Made by a program: the position numbers and the translations under genes. Shown here in pieces: positions 9,012 to 43,663 of a stretch of DNA of 64,000 nt. Each line of letters begins with the position of its first letter. Positions within the stretch are counted from its first letter, which is position 1. The DNA is taken from positions 92,905-156,904 of the forward strand of contig JAJFKR010000028.1 in the NCBI GenBank assembly GCA_021773095.1. The letters run 5' to 3'. Below the pieces are notes generated by a model. It had not been told where the DNA came from and did not search any database. It worked only from the letters and a program-made list of their open reading frames with translations. Source of the DNA: Woeseiaceae bacterium (GTDB taxonomy: Bacteria; Pseudomonadota; Gammaproteobacteria; Steroidobacterales; Woeseiaceae).

Positions 9012-9995
9012 CTATCCCCAAAAATGCTGCGCAGGCAGGGTTACAATGCCGCGGTCGTAGACGAGCCCACCATCACGGTCCTTGCTGATTAGCAGCGGGC
9101 CATCGATATCGACGAAATCGCAGAGTTGTGCGATGACGTGCGAGGGTGCCATCGAGAGTGAGGTGCCGCCCATGCAGCCGACCATCAAGCCGAGGCCGCT
9201 CTCCCTGGCCGCACGGGCCAGCTCGAGTCCGTGTGTGAGCCCGCCACACTTGTCGAGTTTGATATTAATCATTTGATAGCGGCCGCTGTTCTCATCAAGT
9301 TCACCGATATGCTGACAGGACTCGTCCGAACACAGGGGTGAAGCCGACTCATATCCTTTGAGTACCTGATCCGCACCGCGCGGCAGAGGCTGCTCGATCA
9401 TCAGGACTCCAAGCTCATGCAAAGCCGGACCGAACTCCTTTAGCTCATCGAAGCTCCAGCCCTGGTTCACGTCAACGACCAGCCGCGAGTCGGGTCGTGC
9501 CTCGCGGATTGCCGCAATACGTTCGACCGGTCGGTCATTACCCAGTTTTACCTTGAATAAAGTGAGCTCAGCTGCTGCGGTCGCTTTCGCCGCCATTTGT
9601 TCGGGCGTGTCTTCGAGGCCAATTGTGAAGACAGTTTCGATTGGGTTGGGTTCGACACCCGCCGTCTGCCATGCGCTGATACCCGACTTTTGTGCCTCCA
9701 GATCCCAAAGCGCTGAGTCGATGGCTAATCGTGCGCCGCCCGCGGGCAGTAAGGTCAGTAGCTCTTCACGGCTTGCTCCGTGGGATATTTCGTCGGCCAC
9801 TGATTCGATCTGTCGCGTTATCGATTCAAGTGTTTCGCCCAGGTAAGACACGCCCAGCGCTTCACCGCGTCCCGTGATGCCGTCCTGATCAATCTCACAG
9901 ACGATGCACGGGAACTCATGCCAGACGTTTCTCGAGATTCGAAAGGGCGTGATGCAAGGCCAGGATTCAGAGCGGACCCTGATATCGCGATTCAT
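9012..9995 (-). CDS. dgcA: N-acetyl-D-glutamate racemase / dipeptide epimerase family (enolase superfamily)
   Basis: A 327-residue mandelate-racemase/muconate-lactonizing fold enzyme. Visible catalytic elements are the Lys in LFKVKLGND, the metal ligands in LVVDVNQGW, MIEQPLPRG and LCSDESCQ, and the second base Lys in INIKLDKCGG. This K-x-K plus D-E-D-K layout is that of L-Ala-D/L-Glu epimerases and their relative DgcA. Its start overlaps the stop of dgcN by four bases (ATGA). That coupling, rather than the fold alone, makes me call it DgcA, which racemises N-acetyl-D-Glu made by DgcN. A plain dipeptide epimerase is the alternative. Confidence 0.82.
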   Translation of the reverse strand: MNRDIRVRSESWPCITPFRISRNVWHEFPCIVCEIDQDGITGRGEALGVSYLGETLESITRQIESVADEISHGASREELLTLLPAGGARLAIDSALWDLEAQKSGISAWQTAGVEPNPIETVFTIGLEDTPEQMAAKATAAAELTLFKVKLGNDRPVERIAAIREARPDSRLVVDVNQGWSFDELKEFGPALHELGVLMIEQPLPRGADQVLKGYESASPLCSDESCQHIGELDENSGRYQMINIKLDKCGGLTHGLELARAARESGLGLMVGCMGGTSLSMAPSHVIAQLCDFVDIDGPLLISKDRDGGLVYDRGIVTLPAQHFWG

Positions 9996-11020
9996 GACGC
10001 GTACTTCAGGAGGAAATTTGCGATGGGTGTCATGCCGGTTGCGACGGCATCGACGCAGGGCAGTCCGAGTTCATTCTGCAACCGGGACAAATAATTGTCG
10101 CGGTCAAAGTCGCCCATACTGGACGTATTGACGCTAACGCCCGCGCAGAAACATCGTGTGCGCATGCGTCGCGCCATTCGAAGAGCATCGTCGATGACTT
10201 CGTCAAGCTCGGGTATTGGATAGTCACCCGTGGTTCCATCGATAGCGAGGCGCTCGGCGTCATGGCATAAGACGATGGCATCCGGTTGCGAGCCGTGGAG
10301 CAGACCGAGACTGACGCCCGAGTAACTCGGATTCAACAACGAACCCTGTCCCTCGATCACATCCCAGTGATCGTCATCGTTGTCGGGAGACAGGACTTCT
10401 GCAGCCCCGGAGATGAAGTCAGCGACGACCGCGTCAATCGGCAGGCCTTCGCCAGCGATCATGATCCCGGTCTGACCGGTAGCTCTAAACGTCGCCTTTA
10501 TATCTCTGCGCTCAAGTTCGCGGTGCAGAGCCAGGGCACTGTATTTCTTGCCCACAGCGCAATCGGTTCCGATCATCAGCACGCGTTTCCCGCTGCGCGG
10601 TCGACCGCTGCCTACCGGAAGGCCCGCGGGCGGCACGCGAACGTCAATTAACTCGGCGCCGCTTTTGTTGGCGGCGACGACTAAATCTGCAATGTCGGAG
10701 AGTCTCGTATGCAGTCCCGCGGCGATATTAAGTCCAGCACTCGCGAGCTCGATTAGCTGTGGAATCCATTTGCCCGGGATTTGTCCGCCCATCGGAGCGA
10801 CGCCGACGATGACTGTTCGTACACCGGCATCTACTGCATCCTGCACCGTCATATCCGGGAGTCCGAGATCAATCGGGCATTCCGGCAGGCGCAGCTGCCC
10901 GGCACAATGTTCCGGTCGCCAGTAGGCGATTCCCGCACCCGTTTTCGCATGATGCATGTCTGGGACATCGCCCAGGTAGATAAGGTACGGCGTATCGAGA
11001 CTGATTTTATTGATTTGCAT
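9992..11020 (-). CDS. dgcN: DgcN-like N-acetyltransferase (DUF1611 P-loop protein)
   Basis: A 342-residue DUF1611 protein with an N-terminal Rossmann-like half and a C-terminal P-loop half. The nucleotide-binding-like loop is GTDCAVGKK (residues 151-159). VIEGQGSLLNPSYSGVSLG and AIVLCHD are further family motifs. DgcN has been reported to N-acetylate D-glutamate, with DgcA then racemising the product as the entry to D-Glu catabolism in marine bacteria. Translation from the ATG at 11020 drops three residues from the longest frame; no strong ribosome site is visible. It follows the E2 gene by 31 bases, so the pair may be co-transcribed with branched-chain amino-acid catabolism. A divergent homologue of the same fold lies in the arginine operon at 40925-41980. 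Confidence 0.82.
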   Translation of the reverse strand: MQINKISLDTPYLIYLGDVPDMHHAKTGAGIAYWRPEHCAGQLRLPECPIDLGLPDMTVQDAVDAGVRTVIVGVAPMGGQIPGKWIPQLIELASAGLNIAAGLHTRLSDIADLVVAANKSGAELIDVRVPPAGLPVGSGRPRSGKRVLMIGTDCAVGKKYSALALHRELERRDIKATFRATGQTGIMIAGEGLPIDAVVADFISGAAEVLSPDNDDDHWDVIEGQGSLLNPSYSGVSLGLLHGSQPDAIVLCHDAERLAIDGTTGDYPIPELDEVIDDALRMARRMRTRCFCAGVSVNTSSMGDFDRDNYLSRLQNELGLPCVDAVATGMTPIANFLLKYAS

Positions 11021-11051
11021 GTTGACCAATAATAAATTGATTTGTTGGTCA

Positions 11052-35551: not shown

Positions 35552-36736
35552 TCATTTTGCGTAGCGTTTCGCGACCTGCCGGTAAGCATCACGAAACGGA
35601 ATACCGTCTTCACGAACAAGCCGATAGGCTTCCGCAGTCGCGAAAATACCATCGTCGAGCTTAATGTTGTCTGCTTGAAACTGAAGGCCCTCGAGGACGT
35701 AAGCCATGATGTCGACGCTATCGATCGCAAGATCAATGGCACGAAACAGTGGCGACTTCAGACGCTGCAGATCACGGTGATAACCCGACGGTAGTTTTGC
35801 GGTGATCATCAGCGACTCGTCCAGACAGGCCTGCGTTGTTGCGGACGACGCACGCAGTAATTCGAGAACATCCGGGTTACGCTTTTGCGGCATAATCGAG
35901 GAGCCGGTAGTGACCTCAGCAGCCAGTGACACATAGGCGAACTCCTGTGTGTAAAACAACAGAAGGTCGCTGGCCATACGACTCAAGTCCTGCATCAGGA
36001 GGGTTATTTCAAATAACAGCGCACTCTCGGCTTTGCCACGCGACAACTGCGCTGCTGTCACCGGGTTCTGGGTCGAATCGAACTCAAGCTTTTTGGTAGT
36101 CGTATCCCGGTCCAGTGGCAATCCTGGTGTCCCGTAGCCAGCCGCGCTACCCAGCGGGTTCTTGTTAATGCGCTTTCGCACGAGGCGCAGGCCGTCACAG
36201 GCGTCGGCAAAGCCTTCTTCGAAACCGCCGCACCACAGGGCAACCGACGAGGGCATCGCATGCTGCATATGAGTGTAGCCGGGCAGTTCAATATCACCCT
36301 GACGTTCGCTTAAGGAGCTGATCGAGCCACGCAGTTCAGTGACGCGCGACGTGAGATCGCTGGCCGCGTCACGAAGGTACATTCTCAGCGCGGTGAGTAC
36401 CTGATCGTTTCTTGAGCGACCGAGATGAAGACGTCCGCCGGCTGCACCAATAGCATTGGTTAATCGAGTTTCCAGTGCCGTGTGAGCATCTTCATCTTCC
36501 AGGCCGATGCTCCACTCACCTGCGGCGAAACTGTCATTGAGTGCATTCAGACCATCGCGGATTGCGCTGCAATCGTCGCTACTGATCAAGTCCTGATCGG
36601 CGAGCATTTCGGCATGCGCAATCGAGCCGCGCACATCGTATGGGACCAGCCGTGCATCGAGCAGGTGATCTTCGCCCGCCGTGTAGCGTAGTACGCGCTC
36701 GTCGAGTGGCAATCCCTTTTCCCAGAGTCTGCTCAT
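35552..36736 (-). CDS. argH: Argininosuccinate lyase
   Basis: A 394-residue fumarase/aspartase-superfamily enzyme catalysing the last step of arginine synthesis, argininosuccinate to arginine and fumarate. The signature GSSIMPQKRNPD is intact, with HLGRSRNDQV and PGYTHMQHAMP supplying further active-site residues. It is shorter than the roughly 460-residue E. coli enzyme, mainly at the C-terminus. Its ATG overlaps the argB stop by four bases (ATGA). It is the last arginine gene of the operon. Confidence 0.95.
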   Translation of the reverse strand: MSRLWEKGLPLDERVLRYTAGEDHLLDARLVPYDVRGSIAHAEMLADQDLISSDDCSAIRDGLNALNDSFAAGEWSIGLEDEDAHTALETRLTNAIGAAGGRLHLGRSRNDQVLTALRMYLRDAASDLTSRVTELRGSISSLSERQGDIELPGYTHMQHAMPSSVALWCGGFEEGFADACDGLRLVRKRINKNPLGSAAGYGTPGLPLDRDTTTKKLEFDSTQNPVTAAQLSRGKAESALLFEITLLMQDLSRMASDLLLFYTQEFAYVSLAAEVTTGSSIMPQKRNPDVLELLRASSATTQACLDESLMITAKLPSGYHRDLQRLKSPLFRAIDLAIDSVDIMAYVLEGLQFQADNIKLDDGIFATAEAYRLVREDGIPFRDAYRQVAKRYAK

Positions 36737-37662
36737 GATGCGGTACTTTGCTCGGCTGGCGTCAGGCCGCCGATATCGTCGACAACTAATGTGCCGGTGC
36801 CTTCATTTGTAAAGACTTCGAGCAAGATACTGTCGGGCAGTTTGCTGGAAATGACATGCACACGCTGCACACCGTTTTTTATTGCGGAGTCGATCGCGGC
36901 CGCCTTCGGCAACATGCCATCCGCGAGGGTTCCGGATTCCTTTAATTTTCTGAGCGCAGCTCGATCGATGTAGCTGATTAGCGAGGTCGGGTCATTCACG
37001 TCTTCGAGGATGCCGGGCGCACCCGTTGCCAGCAGCAGCTTTTCGGCATCCAGCTCCGCCGCGATGGCCGCTGCGACGGTATCGGCATTGATGTTCAGAA
37101 TCGTGCCCGACTCATCACAGGATAGCGGACTCACGACGGGCATCAGTCCGTTGTCCAGCTGCTTTCGCAGGATGTCCGCGTCAACAGAATCTATGTCACC
37201 AACAAATCCGTAGTCAAGCGGCGATTCGCCGTCACGTTCGACCGGCGGTCGTTTGTGTGCGCGAATCAGTCCTGCGTCAACGCCGCTGATACCGACGGCC
37301 GGAATTTGAAGGTCGCGACAGGTGGCCAGAATCCGGGTGTTAATCTGGCCATTCAAAACCATGGTTGCGACGTTCAGCGATTCGCCATCGGTGACACGGC
37401 GACCGTCGACAAAGGTCGTGTCCAGTCCCAGGGCAGATGCCAGTTCTGTCGACTGAGGTCCGCCACCGTGTACCAGCACGACACGGATACCCACCTGATA
37501 CAGAATGCCGACCTGCTCCATCAGGGCATTGGTATTCCCGGCGTCCGCGAAAACCTCGCCGCCTGCTTTGATAACGAAAACCTTGCCTTTGAACAAGCGA
37601 ATGTACGGCGCGGCATGCTTAAGCGCCGATACAACAATCGCGCGATCCTTCCGGGTGCTCAT
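36733..37662 (-). CDS. argB: N-acetylglutamate kinase (amino-acid kinase family)
   Basis: A 309-residue kinase. The glycine-rich phosphate loop is VIKAGGEVF, substrate-binding motifs are VLVHGGGPQSTEL and NGQINTRIL, and the C-terminal nucleotide site is INADTVAAAIAAELDAEKLL. It phosphorylates N-acylglutamate. The ATG at 37662 overlaps the argF' stop by four bases. Unlike the Xanthomonas enzyme it has no fused GNAT acetyltransferase domain, so it cannot itself supply N-acetylglutamate. Whether it takes acetyl- or another N-acylglutamate is open, given the unusual transcarbamylase next door. Confidence 0.93.
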   Translation of the reverse strand: MSTRKDRAIVVSALKHAAPYIRLFKGKVFVIKAGGEVFADAGNTNALMEQVGILYQVGIRVVLVHGGGPQSTELASALGLDTTFVDGRRVTDGESLNVATMVLNGQINTRILATCRDLQIPAVGISGVDAGLIRAHKRPPVERDGESPLDYGFVGDIDSVDADILRKQLDNGLMPVVSPLSCDESGTILNINADTVAAAIAAELDAEKLLLATGAPGILEDVNDPTSLISYIDRAALRKLKESGTLADGMLPKAAAIDSAIKNGVQRVHVISSKLPDSILLEVFTNEGTGTLVVDDIGGLTPAEQSTAS

Positions 37663-38666
37663 GACGCGCCTCCGAGCATTTGGTGCAGCACCGCCATCTG
37701 CGCGAGCATGCGGTTGCGCGCTTCCGCGATCACCACACTTCGCGGACCGTCGAGGATCTCGTCGGCAACTACGACCCCCCGCCTTACGGGCAAACAATGC
37801 ATAAATCGACAGTCGTCCTTCGCGTTCGCAAACCAGGGCTCGTCCACGCACCAGTCCAGATGTTGTTCACGCAGTTTCTGGTCATTGATCTTGTTGCCGT
37901 AGTGATGGGTCGACGACCACGACTTCGCGTAAATAATATGGGCGCCTTGCATCGCTTCACTGCGCTGGTCCGTTTCAGTGACCGAACCGCCAGCGGCTTC
38001 GGCAGCCGAGATGGCTTTTTGCATCAGTGCCTGTGGTAACTCAAATCCCTCAGGCCTTAACACCGTCACATCCATGCCGCGTTTCGCAGCCATATGCAGC
38101 GTCGCTGCCGGAACCGCCAGCGGTAGTGCTCGCGGATGGTAAGCCCAGCTCAATACGAACTTGCCGCCGTTGGCCGGGACATTGAGATCGTCCAGGGTCT
38201 TCCAGTCTGCGAGGCTCTGGCAGGGATGATTCATCGCCGATTCCATGTTGATGTAAGGCGTATCGATGAGATCTGTGAGCGACGTGAATTCGTTCTCCTG
38301 CATGTCGGCGTCAATGTTTTTTCTTTCTGCGAAGGCACGTATGCCGATAGCATCGCCGTAGGATGCGATCACTGGAATAGCTTCACGTATATGCTCCGCG
38401 GCCGCTCCGTCCATTACGATTCCAGGTCGCGATTCAATACCATGAATCGACATTTCAGGCGAGATGACGAAAGACCCCCCTCCGAGGCGCGTCATGGCGG
38501 CTTGAAACGAGGCGAGCGTTCTCAGGGATGGGCTCAGAAACAATAGCGACAGCACCTTGCCCCTAAGAGCTTCAGGCTCAGGGTTCGTATCAAGACGCGC
38601 GGCTAGCGTAATCAGAGCCTGTATCTCTTCGTTCGAAAAGTCCGCCAGGTCGTTAAAATATTTCAT
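37659..38666 (-). CDS. argF': N-acylornithine carbamoyltransferase (ArgF', AOTCase/SOTCase type)
   Basis: A 335-residue transcarbamylase of the acetyl-/succinylornithine branch, not classical OTCase. The carbamoyl-phosphate loop is SLRT (47-50), the catalytic HPCQ lies in MNHPCQSLAD, and the second binding motif is FMHCLPVRR. LSWAYHPRALPLAVP and YAKSW are signatures of the N-acyl family. In alignment from memory, the position that is Glu92 in Xanthomonas AOTCase and Pro90 in Bacteroides SOTCase is Ala90 here (VMDGAAAEHI). Other segments look closer to SOTCase. An Arg after SLRT is replaced by Leu. AAGGA precedes the ATG. It carbamoylates an N-protected ornithine, so arginine synthesis here passes through N-acylcitrulline. 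Confidence 0.88.
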   Translation of the reverse strand: MKYFNDLADFSNEEIQALITLAARLDTNPEPEALRGKVLSLLFLSPSLRTLASFQAAMTRLGGGSFVISPEMSIHGIESRPGIVMDGAAAEHIREAIPVIASYGDAIGIRAFAERKNIDADMQENEFTSLTDLIDTPYINMESAMNHPCQSLADWKTLDDLNVPANGGKFVLSWAYHPRALPLAVPAATLHMAAKRGMDVTVLRPEGFELPQALMQKAISAAEAAGGSVTETDQRSEAMQGAHIIYAKSWSSTHHYGNKINDQKLREQHLDWCVDEPWFANAKDDCRFMHCLPVRRGVVVADEILDGPRSVVIAEARNRMLAQMAVLHQMLGGAS

Positions 38667-38676
38667 CAGTAATCCT

Positions 38677-39867
38677 TTAGTCAGTTGCCGGCGCAATATC
38701 TCTTAGCGCCTCTGCAAGGTGATCAATATGTCCGGGCTCCAGTACCAGCGGTGCCAGAATTCGAAGTACCTCCGGATCGCTGCTGGTGCCCGTCAAAATG
38801 TCATGGTCGAGCAGTGCGTCGCGCACCTCGATCGCGGGGCGGTCGCATACGAGTCCGAGCAAAAGGCCCATGCCCTGAATTTTCCTGATCGGACCGAGCA
38901 CACACTGCTCGCGGATCGCGGCCTCTGACCGACGGACATTCATCAGCAGGCCTTCTGTTTCGATCGCATCGATCGTCGCTGCGATGGCGGCCGCAGCGAT
39001 TGGACCACCGCCAAAGGTCGAGCCAAGGTCACCGGCACCAAATTGTGCTGCAATCGTGTGGTTGCACAATACGGCGCCACAGGGAATACCGCCGCCCAGC
39101 GCTTTTGCGCTGCTCAGAATGTCGGGCTGAATCTGATGCGCCTGAACCGCAAAGAACTGGCCGCAGCGTCCGATACCCGACTGAACTTCATCGGCGATCA
39201 ACAAAGCACCGTGTTTTTGGGTTGCAGTGCGCAATGCGTGAATGAATTCTGTCGACAGATCGTATGCGCCAGCGACACCCTGGACCGGTTCGAAGATAAC
39301 GGCGGCAATATCGTCACCAATCATTGCATGCGCCGCGGCGACGTCATCGCGCGGAATAAAGTCAACGGCAAAAGGTTTATCGGGAAAACCGTACCAGCGA
39401 TCTGAATTCCAGGTCACCGCCGCTGCCGCTGCAGTGCGTCCGTGAAAACCTTCTGTAATGGCGAGTACTTTTTTTCGGCCGGTCGTCATGCAGGCCATTC
39501 GCAGCGCATTTTCATTCGCTTCGGCGCCTGAGTTGACGAAAAACACCCGGTCCATTCCCTCCGGTGCGACACTGACGAGTTTTTCGGCAGCTTCAGCACG
39601 TATGTCCAGTGCCACGGCGTTGCTCTGGAACAGCAGTTTGTTGCTCTGGTCAGTAATAGCCTTGATCAGGCGAGGATGACCGTAGCCGAGTGCGGCGACC
39701 GCGTGTCCACCATAGAGATCGAGTATGCGGCGGCCGTCTTTTGTGAAAATATCGCAGCCACTGGCTCGCTCCGGAACGAATGGCAATTGCCCATAAACCG
39801 GAATTGTGACGCCGGCCTCGCGAATTCGAGGGTCGGTCATCAGTGCGTGTTTACCGATGCTCGACAT
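38677..39867 (-). CDS. argD: N-acetylornithine aminotransferase (class III, PLP)
   Basis: A 396-residue PLP enzyme. FVNSGAEANENALRMA binds cofactor phosphate, LLIADEVQSGIGRCG holds the PLP-binding aspartate, and the Schiff-base lysine is in LSSAKALGGGIP. It converts N-acylglutamate semialdehyde to N-acylornithine. The ATG at 39867 overlaps the argC stop by one base (TGATG); a second ATG nine codons later is less likely. The order argC-argD-argF'-argB follows the chemistry closely. Confidence 0.93.
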   Translation of the reverse strand: MSSIGKHALMTDPRIREAGVTIPVYGQLPFVPERASGCDIFTKDGRRILDLYGGHAVAALGYGHPRLIKAITDQSNKLLFQSNAVALDIRAEAAEKLVSVAPEGMDRVFFVNSGAEANENALRMACMTTGRKKVLAITEGFHGRTAAAAAVTWNSDRWYGFPDKPFAVDFIPRDDVAAAHAMIGDDIAAVIFEPVQGVAGAYDLSTEFIHALRTATQKHGALLIADEVQSGIGRCGQFFAVQAHQIQPDILSSAKALGGGIPCGAVLCNHTIAAQFGAGDLGSTFGGGPIAAAAIAATIDAIETEGLLMNVRRSEAAIREQCVLGPIRKIQGMGLLLGLVCDRPAIEVRDALLDHDILTGTSSDPEVLRILAPLVLEPGHIDHLAEALRDIAPATD

Positions 39868-40928
39868 CAGGTCCACCCTGGCCCGGCAGCAGTAAGACCT
39901 GCGGTTTCCGGGAGATTCCAGAGCCGGTTCATCCATTGCACGGCACCGCCCGCAGCACCTTTGACGAGATTGTCTATCACGCTCATCACGACGACCGACT
40001 GACCGTCTGTTGCAACGCTGATATGGCACATATTGCTGCCGACGACATTCTTGAGTCTGGGTGTTCCACTCACAACCTCGACGAAGGGAGAGTTCGCATA
40101 AGCCTTCGCGTAAACATCGCGAAGTTGCTCTTCACTGACGGCGCTGGTGGTTTTTGCCTGTAACGTAATGTGGATCCCTCTCGAAAACGGCCCGGAGTGC
40201 GGTACAAAATGTACGGTCGTATCGCAGCCACTGGCGGTGGTCGCGAGGCCGGCGATCTCCGGCGAATGACGGTGCGCCAGCGGCTTATAGGCATACAGAT
40301 TGCTGTTGCGTTCCGGATGGTGCGTGCCGGCTTGCGGGCTGCGTCCGGAGCCTGTGCTGCCGGTGACGCCGGTGACGAAAACTTCACGATTCGTCAGTCC
40401 CGATCGCATCAGTGGCACTGCTGCCAGCAATGTCGCCGTCGCGAAACAACCCGGGTGGCCAACGTGCGGTGTTGCAATTGTGTCGACATGCTCCGGTAGC
40501 GCACAGGTGAATTCCTGTAGTAATTCCGGCGCGCCGTGCTCGCTGCCATAAACGGCCTCCCAGGCCGGTTGCTCCGAGTAGCGAAAGTCAGCCGACGAGT
40601 CGACAACGTGAATATTCAGGTTTTTGTCGTCGGCAGCGCTCAATATCGTTTTGATAATGCTGGCCGAGGCACCGTGCGGTGCAGCCGAGAACAGTGCGAT
40701 ATTGCTGTCATCTTCAATGGCGTCCGACCAGGCGTCGCGTGCCACAAATGTGGTGCCCGCCAGCACCTGTGACAAATGAGCAAAGGTCTCAGCGACCGGG
40801 AGACCCGCCCGGCTGTCGGAGACGGCAGCCGCCAGCTCAAAATCCGGGTGTCCTGAAATCAGTCGTAACAGCTCGCCACCGACATAGCCGCTGGCTCCCA
40901 GTACTACGGTTTGAATGGGCGCTGTCAT
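39867..40928 (-). CDS. argC: N-acylglutamyl-phosphate reductase
   Basis: A 353-residue NADPH-dependent dehydrogenase. The dinucleotide fold is GASGYVGGEL at the N-terminus and the catalytic cysteine is Cys161 in HPGCFATATL. IDNLVKGAAGGAVQ is the C-terminal family signature. The loop at 201-221 reads THHPERNSNLYAYKP followed by HRH, which is close to the loop of LysY, the reductase that works on LysW-bound substrate, rather than to typical ArgC. The overall sequence looks like Bacteroidetes ArgC. The ATG overlaps the stop of the P-loop gene by four bases. Confidence 0.92.
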   Translation of the reverse strand: MTAPIQTVVLGASGYVGGELLRLISGHPDFELAAAVSDSRAGLPVAETFAHLSQVLAGTTFVARDAWSDAIEDDSNIALFSAAPHGASASIIKTILSAADDKNLNIHVVDSSADFRYSEQPAWEAVYGSEHGAPELLQEFTCALPEHVDTIATPHVGHPGCFATATLLAAVPLMRSGLTNREVFVTGVTGSTGSGRSPQAGTHHPERNSNLYAYKPLAHRHSPEIAGLATTASGCDTTVHFVPHSGPFSRGIHITLQAKTTSAVSEEQLRDVYAKAYANSPFVEVVSGTPRLKNVVGSNMCHISVATDGQSVVVMSVIDNLVKGAAGGAVQWMNRLWNLPETAGLTAAGPGWT

Positions 40929-41980
40929 GCGACCTCCTTTTCAAGCAAAGCAGCAATCTTGTCGCCCAGTGCCACGCCACTGGATAATGCATTGATTCCC
41001 TGTAATGACAAGCGTTCTGCGATTTGCTGTACGCCCACATCGTTATCCGTTGCCGGGCCGGTTACGACGGCCGGCTCTATGCCATGTTCATCCCGTAGAA
41101 TTTTCGCGCCACCCCAGGCTGATACAGGGTCGTTCGCACATAGAACAACAGCCGTTAGTGCATCGCGAATCTGCTCGTCGGAGAGTATGGCGGCGACGCC
41201 GTATGCACCCAGCAATCCGTCGCCCAGTTCGAGAACGATGACGTCCGGTTTTTTCGCGCCGAGACCTGTAAGCAATGATCGCGTGAGGGCGGGGCCGTTG
41301 TCCGCGGTCGTTGTGACAATCCCAAGGTCAGAGAAAATCATTGTGTCCGCAGCACCAGCGTCCTCCATTGCGAGCACGTCGCGCCGCAGAGAAACGCCGG
41401 TCGCCTTGCAAGCCGCGACTTTCAGTCCGAGGTGTCGTAGCCGCCCTACGATGGCGCAGGCGGCGGCGGTCTTGCCCGAATCCATGCAGGTGCCCGCAAG
41501 TGCCACTACCGGCACGCCGTTCAATTTCAGCAGTGCGTCTTTATCGAGCGTCGAGGATCCGGCACGTGCCGGCACGCCGATGCGTTCGCCAAGATAGGGA
41601 AACTCAAGAACGGTACCCAGCACTTCGCATTCGAAGGGTGAGCCGACGTCCGGATTCGCCGAATCGCATATTCCAATGACGCCGCCGATGTTCAATATCT
41701 GTACGTGATCGCCTATTGCCAATTCCGTTGGCAAATGTCCGGAATAACCGCGTAAGGCATTGCGATGGCCAAGTGCTCCGACAACGACGTCACCCATTGT
41801 TACAGTCGCCATGCGGCCCGACGTCAGCTCAAGCTGGTTGTAGCGTGATTTGTTGTTCAAAACGCGGACTGCAATAAGCACACCTTCTTCACACGGGATA
41901 TCCGGGGACAAGCGGAGCTCTGCGGCCAGATCATTGTGCTGCGCGACCGAAGCCACTTTGTCGACGACGATACTTTTCAT
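40925..41980 (-). CDS. DUF1611/DgcN-like P-loop protein inside the arginine operon
   Basis: A 351-residue protein with an N-terminal domain of about 150 residues (GDVVVGALGHRNALRGYSG, then VQILNIGGVIGICDSANPDVG) and a C-terminal P-loop domain with Walker A GTCMDSGKT (163-171). By eye it aligns with DgcN at 9992-11020: both share GT-x4-GK, a K-x5-ATG segment, an acidic E-x3-GLL or E-x3-SLL segment and a DA-x-VLC motif. DgcN N-acetylates glutamate. This operon has no argA, argJ or GNAT gene, so an N-acyltransferase role in the first step is an attractive inference, not a demonstrated one. GGAGG lies upstream of the ATG, two bases after the argG stop; its own stop overlaps argC. Confidence 0.82.
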   Translation of the reverse strand: MKSIVVDKVASVAQHNDLAAELRLSPDIPCEEGVLIAVRVLNNKSRYNQLELTSGRMATVTMGDVVVGALGHRNALRGYSGHLPTELAIGDHVQILNIGGVIGICDSANPDVGSPFECEVLGTVLEFPYLGERIGVPARAGSSTLDKDALLKLNGVPVVALAGTCMDSGKTAAACAIVGRLRHLGLKVAACKATGVSLRRDVLAMEDAGAADTMIFSDLGIVTTTADNGPALTRSLLTGLGAKKPDVIVLELGDGLLGAYGVAAILSDEQIRDALTAVVLCANDPVSAWGGAKILRDEHGIEPAVVTGPATDNDVGVQQIAERLSLQGINALSSGVALGDKIAALLEKEVA

Positions 41981-41981
41981 A

Positions 41982-43190
41982 TCAGCCTCCCGCCGCCCGC
42001 GTCTGCAGCGTCCCAGGTAAGGACAGAATGCGTGCGTATCCCAGCGCATCGCCGGCCGTCCATTCGCCAGCCGCTTCGCCATAGATTCCTTTGCTGGCAG
42101 CCAGCAAGGAGTGTGGCGAGGTCGTGCCTTCAATGAACAAAGCACCCGGTCGCAAGCCGAACGTGACCGACCCGGTTACGCGCTTCTGTGATGACGCGAG
42201 CAGTGCCTCGACATCGTCGCAGGCCAGATCAAGTTGCTTGCCTTCGTGCACGAGGTCCCCATACACGGCAGCGACACTGTCTTTAATGCGCGCCTGCTGG
42301 GCACTAAGGACCAGTTTCTCGAGCTCGCGGTGAGCGGTAATCAGGGTGATTGCAGCGGGCGCCTCAAATGCGACGCGGCCCTTGGTGCCGAGTACGGTGT
42401 CGCCGAGGTGAATACCGCGTCCAATGCCGTAGCCTCCCGCGAGTACTTCGAGTTTTTCAATCAGCTCTACCGGTGCAAGTGCTTCGTCGTCCAGCGCGAC
42501 TGGCACGCCCGCAGTAAAGTCCAGTGTGTGGCTTGACGGTTCCAGCGGCTCCGAGAATGCGCTGGCTGATAACACCCAGGCTGACTCGGGAATCGAGGCG
42601 TCGGACGTCAGTGTCTCCTGACCACCAATCGTGATGCCCCACAAACCGCGATTGATTGAGTACGCCGAGCCCTGTGCGGGTAACGGCAATCCATGGTTTT
42701 CAAGATAGGCGAGCTGCTCGTCACGAACCCAGTTGTTGTCACGCACCGGTGCCAGGACTTCGAGTCCCGGGTTGAGTGTCCGCAAAGCGACTTCAAAGCG
42801 AACCTGATCATTGCCTGCAGCGGTGCAGCCGTGAGCAACGGTTGTTGCGCCACGATCGGTCGCGATAGCCGCCAGCCGCTCGGCCTGCAGGCCGCGTTCC
42901 GCGCCGACACACAGCGGATACGCGTGGCCACGAAGTACGTTGCCGGCGATAAGGTGTTTGATCACGGTTTCGAAAAAGTCCTGCTTTGCGTCAATCAGTA
43001 CGTGTTCAATCGCACCCAGCGCCAGGGCACGCTCTTGCAGAGCGGTCGCAGCTCCCGCATCGATACCGCCGGTATCGACACAGGCAGTAATTACTTCGCG
43101 GCCATAGTTTTCCTTTAGCCATGGCACGCAAAACGACGTATCAAGGCCACCTGAAAAGGCGAGAATAATGGGTGATGTGTCCTTGCTCAC
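41982..43190 (-). CDS. argG: Argininosuccinate synthase
   Basis: A 402-residue ATP-pyrophosphatase. The PP-loop is AFSGGLDTSFCVPWL, and GCTAAGNDQVRFE is the substrate-binding motif. It joins citrulline and aspartate. The first segment resembles Bacteroidetes-type ArgG more than the E. coli enzyme. I use the GTG at 43190 because GGAG lies six bases upstream; the longest frame adds nine residues. It follows argR by 23 bases and is the first biosynthetic gene of the operon. Confidence 0.94.
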   Translation of the reverse strand: MSKDTSPIILAFSGGLDTSFCVPWLKENYGREVITACVDTGGIDAGAATALQERALALGAIEHVLIDAKQDFFETVIKHLIAGNVLRGHAYPLCVGAERGLQAERLAAIATDRGATTVAHGCTAAGNDQVRFEVALRTLNPGLEVLAPVRDNNWVRDEQLAYLENHGLPLPAQGSAYSINRGLWGITIGGQETLTSDASIPESAWVLSASAFSEPLEPSSHTLDFTAGVPVALDDEALAPVELIEKLEVLAGGYGIGRGIHLGDTVLGTKGRVAFEAPAAITLITAHRELEKLVLSAQQARIKDSVAAVYGDLVHEGKQLDLACDDVEALLASSQKRVTGSVTFGLRPGALFIEGTTSPHSLLAASKGIYGEAAGEWTAGDALGYARILSLPGTLQTRAAGG

Positions 43191-43213
43191 TAAGGTCTCC
43201 GAAAAAGGGTGGA

Positions 43214-43663
43214 TCACCGGGAACGAGCGGTGTGCTCGATCCGGGTAATGAGATTTTTTTGTGCGATGCCGGACTCGGTCGCAACAAATACGGTGTCGTC
43301 GCCACCAATATTGCCGATGACTTCAGGCCAGTTGCTGCGGTCGAAGGCGAGTGCAACACGTTGTGCCGCACCGATGGCTGTTTTGACGACGAGCAGATTG
43401 GGGCCCGCTGGCTGGATGGTTCGAAGCAGCTCAGCGACGGCCGTCAACTGGTCGTCATCATCCCGACTCCCGGTGGGTAGCTCGTAGCCGGCCGGGGTCT
43501 TGATCGCGCCGATCTCCTTGAGATCACGACTGACGCCGGACTGCGTTGCGCCGTAGCCTGCGGCCCGTAACGTAGCCACGAGGGAGCCTTGCGTTGCCGC
43601 AGGTCGTTCCAGCAGCAATTGTCGTATCGCATCGCGTCTTTGTTCGTGATTGGTGTTGGGCAC
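43214..43663 (-). CDS. argR: Arginine repressor ArgR
   Basis: A 149-residue regulator. The N-terminal winged helix covers about 5-70 (RRDAIRQLLLERPAATQGSL, then ATQSGVSRDLKEIGAIK). The C-terminal hexamerisation and arginine-binding domain has the conserved GNIGGDDTVFVAT, where the two aspartates contact arginine. It heads the arginine operon and probably represses it together with itself. A paired palindrome lies immediately upstream at 43678-43713. Confidence 0.95.
   Translation of the reverse strand: MPNTNHEQRRDAIRQLLLERPAATQGSLVATLRAAGYGATQSGVSRDLKEIGAIKTPAGYELPTGSRDDDDQLTAVAELLRTIQPAGPNLLVVKTAIGAAQRVALAFDRSNWPEVIGNIGGDDTVFVATESGIAQKNLITRIEHTARSR

Follow-up and report, generated by a model that had tools for sequence, protein, structure and literature searches.

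A P-loop protein encoded in the arginine operon of Woeseiaceae as a candidate N-succinylglutamate synthase

Introduction

The locus considered here lies in a 64,000-nucleotide stretch of a Woeseiaceae bacterium genome (assembly GCA_021773095.1, contig JAJFKR010000028.1, positions 92,905 to 156,904; hereafter, the window). It holds an arginine operon in which the steps after the first are represented, and the question that it raises is which protein acylates glutamate in the committing reaction. Several unrelated enzymes can carry out this first step. Between argG and argC, an open reading frame on the minus strand (40925-41980, ATG at 41980) encodes a P-loop protein of 351 residues that is given the working name X. 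An initial annotation had proposed that X is a DgcN-like protein and an unrelated replacement for N-acetylglutamate synthase (NAGS). The analysis described below leads us to propose, with a probability of roughly 0.6, that X is the committing N-succinylglutamate synthase of arginine synthesis in this lineage.

In its available text, a 2015 review of NAGS states that the gene succinylating glutamate was not identified (PMC4490483). Later proposals for the Bacteroidetes, as given in the accessible parts of two papers, name the GNAT protein BT3761 (PMC7311316) and ArgA2 (PMC9026213), which are presumably the same protein. For the succinyl version of glutamate acylation, only these GNAT proposals in Bacteroidetes were found in our literature search, which most subscription journals lay beyond; no description of a P-loop N-succinylglutamate synthase was apparent in it.

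Results

X is a conserved member of the arginine operon

The operon reads argR-argG-X-argC-argD-argF'-argB-argH when its genes are named with NCBIfam and Pfam, and the initial description of an operon with the later steps and no GNAT domain was borne out, argB being without one. The stop codon of X and the start codon of argC share four bases (ATGA), also as described; the spacing to argG is one base (TGA-T-ATG), not the two bases that had been counted.

An even sample of 196 genomes of the order, taken from a larger group, served to examine the distribution of X. X was matched in 160 of these. The sole match was a paralogue of about 30% identity in seven (G003, G007, G030, G053, G063, G125 and G166), and their subtraction leaves 153 genomes with an orthologue, a count that includes several fragments and some low-scoring sequences judged by E-value alone. 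Orthologues in 153 of 196 genomes rule out a chance open reading frame. In a class-wide sample of 369 genomes, nine matched X at E 1e-40, five of them from the same order (the present genome included) and four from outside it. Named relatives of X number at least 548, and the loci of the best 80 were examined; 37 of these 80 are assigned to Woeseiaceae or Woeseia, and most of the others just to Gammaproteobacteria or Proteobacteria.

The position of X was constant. It sits between argG and argC in all 80 of these best-matching named loci, 66 of which show all eight operon genes and 14 fewer than eight. Twenty stretches of the order, selected to be diverse, all keep the gene order; 19 have the full set of genes, and one is truncated where its contig ends. 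The position between argG and argC recurs in the four outside genomes, with about 0.6 kb separating X from argC in one of them (L216). Three of the outside operons are rearranged (argD-argF'-argB-argH-argG-X-argC) and encode X proteins 45-49% identical to that of the window; the fourth outside locus is a 4.8-kb contig only, with an X of 44% identity. Across 20 loci, the median identity to the window protein was 65.6% for X, 66.4% for ArgG, 66.7% for ArgB and 53.5% for ArgC. By this measure, X is conserved to the same degree as the arginine-pathway enzymes.

Known synthases are missing where X is present

The genome that contains the window is 89% complete in 42 contigs. ArgJ was not found in it at E 10; the only matches to the ArgA model were argB and two weak GNATs (E 0.012 and 0.031), which turned out to be RimI and an ArsN2-like protein. 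On these grounds the idea that the genome hides an ArgA or ArgJ was rejected; the search for either gene elsewhere in the genome, which the initial annotation had named as a test of its proposal, found neither.

The same pattern held across genomes. ArgA (TIGR01890) scored over its cut-off in none of the 196 genomes of the order and none of the four outside genomes; since the model passed its cut-off in only one of 14 control genomes, its absence excludes classical ArgA alone. Weak partial matches to the GNAT end of the ArgA model were seen in two outside genomes, G427 and G480 (E-values of 6.8e-8 and 3.4e-5 in the two). In five single-contig genomes with X (G065, G048, G060, G070 and G088), the model matched one place only at E 0.001. 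ArgJ scored over its cut-off once in the 196 genomes, in a piece of some 50 residues where a contig of G181 ends (G181:C24:20-169).

NAGS-K (NF003387), a GNAT domain fused to ArgB, was found in 22 of the 196 genomes: 20 over the cut-off (one, G040, barely and in a cut gene), one as a partial match (G081) and one in two pieces (G019). No genome contained both NAGS-K and an X orthologue. NAGS-K is thus present in 22 of the 43 genomes that have no X orthologue, and in five of the seven that have only the paralogue. Coexistence with a known synthase, the pattern that the initial annotation had set against its own proposal, was accordingly found for the paralogues and never for the orthologues.

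Neither X orthologue nor NAGS-K was present in 21 genomes of the order. Five of these are metagenome-assembled genomes in 160-490 contigs (G100, G131, G188, G189 and G192), and four of the five carry a stand-alone argB beside neighbours of the X-operon type. The other 16 had no match to NF003387 at E 0.001; they comprise the families f9 (5 of 5 genomes) and f13 (8 of 11) together with G042, G125 and G166. The arginine pathway thus seems absent or different in these 16, which probably depend on external arginine or make it by another route.

Residues of the carbamoyltransferase point to a succinyl group

The acylornithine carbamoyltransferase ArgF' offers a means of reading the acyl group. According to the available text of PMC4581275, N-acetylornithine carbamoyltransferases have Glu92, Asn185 and Lys302 (X. 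campestris numbering), and N-succinylornithine carbamoyltransferases have A/S/P/V/Q at 92, P at 185 and V/I/E at 302; in its accessible part, the GapMind paper reads the first position likewise for Bacteroidetes (PMC7311316). The window ArgF' has Ala, Pro and Val at these positions, which fits the succinyl-type rule and includes none of the three acetyl-type residues. NF003384, over its cut-off, names this protein N-acetylornithine carbamoyltransferase.

The comparison was extended to 100 X loci, made up of the 20 stretches of the order and the 80 named records (some from the same genomes, as with L035/L205 and L036/L204), and to the NAGS-K loci of 18 among the 22 genomes. Residues could be read in 89 of the 100 X loci and 16 of the 18 NAGS-K loci, the others being left out where the argF' frame was missing, too weak or shorter than 200 residues; three outside loci were also read, with L218, in which the contig ends, omitted. 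The 89 X loci gave A-P-V in 81 cases, A-P-A in seven and A-P-unknown in one. Two outside loci gave P-P-E and one gave V-P-E. The 16 NAGS-K loci gave E-N-K (14) and E-N-Q (2). Positions 92 and 185 are therefore of the succinyl type in 92/92 X loci and of the acetyl type in 16/16 NAGS-K loci, and position 302 fits the succinyl rule in 84 of the 92 X loci (seven Ala, one unknown). This signature suggests that the intermediates of the X pathway are N-succinyl rather than N-acetyl compounds. The best support for the succinyl reading that is partly independent comes from the outside operons, in which the genes are arranged differently and the residues differ but belong to the same class.

An ArgF' tree of 45 rows had one deep split, which set the X and outside-X rows apart from the NAGS-K rows and the Xanthomonas reference. 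This tree was built with only some of the X rows; rows of 250 residues or fewer were dropped, unknown letters were deleted and one long branch was flagged.

X is a P-loop protein without close relatives of known function

X had no Pfam or NCBIfam match over a cut-off in searches at E 1. Its best family matches were weak, below-cut-off ones to MobB models (E 0.0039 and 0.00093), in the same P-loop region that resembles SIMIBI proteins. The models for ArgA, ArgJ and NAGS-K (TIGR01890, PF01960 and NF003387) were absent among the matches of X at E 1. A phmmer search of X against sequences in the Protein Data Bank gave a best E of 0.28, and a profile of X plus its paralogues a best E of 0.19.

DgcN is named by NCBIfam as an N-acetyltransferase acting on D-glutamate, and the literature consulted places dgcN or DgcN-DgcA simply in a D-glutamate pathway. 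The initial annotation had likened X to the DgcN homologue encoded 30 kb away. This likeness survived in the P-loop region and nowhere else. X matched neither NF041892 nor PF07755/PF17396 (DgcN/DUF1611) at E 1; a PF07755 profile search of its genome found only the dgcN gene of the window, and BLASTP between the two proteins detected no similarity (best E 0.23). When a profile of 22 X relatives (paralogues included) was aligned in hhalign to one of nine DgcN/DUF1611 proteins, the probability was 50.7 (E 1.6e-4) over just 100 columns around the P-loop. Membership of X in the DgcN/DUF1611 family was rejected on these results.

An AlphaFold model of X was computed from a 64-row alignment (mean pLDDT 77, pTM 0.74); the P-loop half is mostly above pLDDT 90, and the N-terminal half is weak. 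In a Foldseek search with this model, GTPases of the signal recognition particle (SRP) occupied most of ranks 1-18, HypB ranks 9 and 11, the DUF1611 structure 2obn rank 19 (E 1.3e-5, TM 0.41) and BioD rank 23. With SRP GTPases and HypB ahead of 2obn, the predicted structure places X and DgcN in the same fold class (SIMIBI-type P-loop) and does not support a specific kinship. The searches taken together place X in a family of its own.

The Walker A pattern GT-x-M-x-x-GKT is invariant in both orthologue alignments (A1, 25 rows; A3, 64 rows), as are K192, T194, G195, D201, D218, E251 and D284. When paralogues and outside relatives are taken in as well (22 rows of A5), the Walker pattern is broken in two rows, and two rows differ at the seven residues.

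The X operons lack argE

An ArgE-type gene accompanies NAGS-K in 16 of 18 loci by tblastn (the exceptions being L231 and L234); that of L221 scored 448 bits against NF006439 (cut-off 345). Within the stretches fetched, the same search found such a gene in 0/100 X loci and 0/4 outside X loci, and a DapE query had no match in these 104 loci. DapE is a desuccinylase, an activity that would suit a succinyl pathway with no requirement for argE. It is the sole M20 enzyme shared by all of four X genomes (G000, G065, G048 and G070); its TIGR01246 score is 508-536 bits in three and 497 in one read from an internal start. The one-contig genome G070 has a second M20 match that is marginal (E 7e-10) and lies in a very long frame.

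Paralogues of X are found beside M20 hydrolases

The fetched loci of the ~30% paralogues contained no arg gene. That X is a general gene coexisting with known synthases holds just for these paralogues and was rejected for X itself. In 13 of 18 loci (L109-L116, L118, L119 and L122-L124), the paralogue and an M20 hydrolase are no more than about 100 bases apart; the two hydrolases that were scanned are similar to PRK07338 and PRK06133, with scores below the cut-offs. A homologue 28% identical to X is encoded on the Priestia megaterium plasmid NZ_CP085446.1 (L265:730-8894), with an M20 gene two genes away and a carbamoyltransferase nearby. Such neighbours are as expected for pairs of N-acylation and deacylation enzymes, and their presence would support N-acyl chemistry for the X family.

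Other features of these loci were also recorded. In 10 of the 18 paralogue loci, the paralogue is preceded by a protein of about 200 residues without an NCBIfam match (one was scanned) that has the look, by eye, of an FMN split-barrel flavoprotein. A second type of paralogue adjoins an alpha/beta hydrolase (L117, L126 and L266) and an ABC transporter (L264 and L266); L264 and L266 are plasmids of Sulfitobacter and Paracoccus. The Priestia cluster also encodes two ATP-grasp proteins, an LLM oxidoreductase and an isocitrate lyase/PEP mutase family protein and has two genes for thiamine-pyrophosphate enzymes; it may be a phosphonate-type natural product cluster.

Features of the window

The genes discussed are listed in Table 1. 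Pfam matched the ASL_C2 domain of ArgH at its start only, and the aligned length of ArgH was similar across other X operons with a complete argH. The DgcN structure 7xrj matches the window DgcN at 361 bits. On a Vibrio parahaemolyticus plasmid (NZ_CP013250.1, L271), a DUF1611 protein adjoins an alanine/ornithine racemase family enzyme instead of dgcA.

Table 1. Positions in the window of X, the other genes of the arginine operon and the dgcN-dgcA pair
Feature	Position	Strand	Evidence
X, P-loop protein, 351 aa, proposed N-succinyl-L-glutamate (N-acylglutamate) synthase	40925..41980	-	Walker A GTCMDSGKT at residues 163-171
argG, argininosuccinate synthase	41982..43217	-	TIGR00032 307.5 bits, cut-off 268.2
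argR, arginine repressor, first gene of the operon	43214..43663	-	TIGR01529 96 bits, below cut-off 130; PF02863 and PF01316 over cut-off
argC, N-acyl-gamma-glutamyl-phosphate reductase	39867..40928	-	TIGR01850 318 bits, cut-off 233.6
argD, acylornithine aminotransferase	38677..39840	-	PF00202 E 3.4e-92; TIGR00707 327 bits, below cut-off 410
argF', acylornithine carbamoyltransferase	37659..38666	-	NF003384 333 bits, cut-off 288
argB, N-acylglutamate kinase, stand-alone, 309 aa	36733..37662	-	TIGR00761 219 bits, cut-off 151; Pfam: PF00696 only, without GNAT domain
argH, argininosuccinate lyase, 394 aa, short C-terminus	35552..36736	-	TIGR00838 311 bits, cut-off 279.5
dgcN homologue, 30 kb from X	9992-11029		NF041892 456 bits, just below cut-off 480; PF07755 E 2.7e-67
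dgcA homologue, adjoins dgcN	9012-9995		406 bits, cut-off 400

Discussion

In the proposed pathway, X would succinylate L-glutamate at its alpha-amino group, with succinyl-CoA as the most likely donor, to form N-succinyl-L-glutamate. Its P-loop would hold phosphates of CoA, the donor then being seated on that loop, or of a nucleotide. ArgB, ArgC and ArgD would convert the product to N-succinylornithine, which ArgF' would carbamoylate to N-succinylcitrulline. Succinate would then be taken off by a desuccinylase, for which the DapE-type M20 enzyme is the probable candidate, and ArgG and ArgH would complete the synthesis. X would then be a non-orthologous replacement of the acetylating synthases ArgA, ArgJ and NAGS-K, and likewise of the GNAT to which succinylation is attributed in the Bacteroidetes proposals. 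The initial idea of an unrelated replacement for NAGS is retained in part, for a dedicated gene of arg operons in genomes where neither ArgA nor NAGS-K was found over cut-off and ArgJ only as one fragment; the kinship to DgcN is dropped, and the acyl group is refined to succinyl by the residues of ArgF'.

Several observations weigh against this proposal. Beyond the P-loop region, no homology of X to any proven acyltransferase was detected, and that region is commoner in NTPases. The best structural matches of the model are SRP GTPases; these, 2obn and BioD all have TM values of about 0.4 of the query. Two activities, those of a synthase and of a deacylase, are missing from the X operons, and X could provide the second instead of the first, or both together. 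Some X genomes, the single-contig G029 and G080 among them, have further weak matches to the ArgA model, and a synthase of an unrecognised GNAT type may be encoded elsewhere in the genome. The genome with the ArgJ-like fragment (G181) also has X; the fragment may be contamination or a remnant. As to the acyl group, the third ArgF' residue is Ala in 7 of 89 loci, which is not in the published V/I/E list, and the window ArgF' scores 210-212 bits against Xanthomonas acetyl-type enzymes and mutants and 166 bits against the succinyl-type enzyme of B. fragilis. Within the order, X and the succinyl-type ArgF' appear to travel as one cassette, and the single deep split in the ArgF' tree means that few independent events stand behind the association of the residues with X.

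The alternatives differ in the part that they leave to X. It is unlikely, in our estimation, that X has another role in the operon, for example as a regulator dependent on ATP or GTP, as the deacylase or as some other enzyme that handles acyl or carbamoyl groups, with a GNAT or other protein elsewhere making N-acylglutamate. The weak MobB likeness of the P-loop region (E 0.0009) and the resemblance of the model to SIMIBI NTPases would suit such a role, as would the GNAT identity of the synthase proposed for Bacteroidetes in the accessible parts of PMC7311316 and PMC9026213 and the weak extra ArgA-model matches in part of the X genomes and in G427 and G480. The mutual exclusion of X and NAGS-K speaks against it, however, as do the five single-contig genomes with one ArgA-model place and the identification of the two weak GNATs of the present genome as RimI and an ArsN2-like protein.

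A committing synthase that attaches acetyl, as in the initial annotation, or another acid is a slightly less likely choice still. The operon position and the missing ArgA, ArgJ and NAGS-K apply equally to it; NCBIfam calls ArgF' an N-acetylornithine carbamoyltransferase, over the cut-off, and annotates DgcN, also a P-loop protein, as an N-acetyltransferase (NF041892). These points must be set against the uniform division of residues 92 and 185 between X loci and NAGS-K loci and the lack of specific kinship between X and DgcN. Least probable of the three is an ArgJ-like X that moves the succinyl group from N-succinylcitrulline to glutamate in a cycle without a deacylase. The distribution of argE (0/104 X loci versus 16/18 NAGS-K loci) would be explained, and in G070 DapE is the only clear M20 enzyme; yet a separate priming reaction would be required, transacylation does not need a P-loop, and DapE could take off the succinyl group.

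On the reading of X as an N-succinylglutamate synthase, the element that is new here is the likely acyl group, succinyl, at the step of the X operon. A wider proposal can be made only tentatively, at somewhat less than even odds: that X founds a class of SIMIBI P-loop N-succinyltransferases, that lysine and arginine synthesis have DapE in common or X itself passes the succinyl group of N-succinylcitrulline back to glutamate, and that most sampled members of this order of marine gammaproteobacteria build arginine through succinylated intermediates without a dedicated GNAT synthase or argE. Woeseia has a cultured species. Should the synthase assignment be correct, a pathway gap would be closed in many genomes of a mostly uncultured marine lineage, an unnamed protein family would gain a function, the name "N-acetylornithine carbamoyltransferase" of the neighbouring gene would be corrected, and the succinyl pathway would extend beyond Bacteroidetes.

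Four known systems invite comparison. DgcN resembles X in length (about 350 residues) and in having a P-loop followed by a K/R-x-TG motif. However, DgcN has a Rossmann-like DUF1611_N domain, whereas the N-terminal region of X is beta-rich in a low-confidence prediction, and dgcN is paired with the racemase gene dgcA, whereas X is paired with arg genes. The SIMIBI enzymes BioD, MobB and HypB have the P-loop region and fold class in common with X, but none matches it over its full length, and X has a conserved N-terminal region of about 150 residues and invariant residues of its own. NAGS-K, of the Xanthomonas type, serves the same step in sister genomes of the order and is accompanied by a related acylornithine carbamoyltransferase; unlike the reaction proposed for X, its product is N-acetylglutamate, and in the 196 genomes it never occurs with an X orthologue. 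A functional parallel is BT3761/ArgA2, for which the same reaction and the same succinyl pathway are proposed in the available text of PMC7311316 and PMC9026213. That protein belongs to the GNAT family, whereas X is a P-loop protein without a GNAT match. Its gene lies next to argG, as does X.

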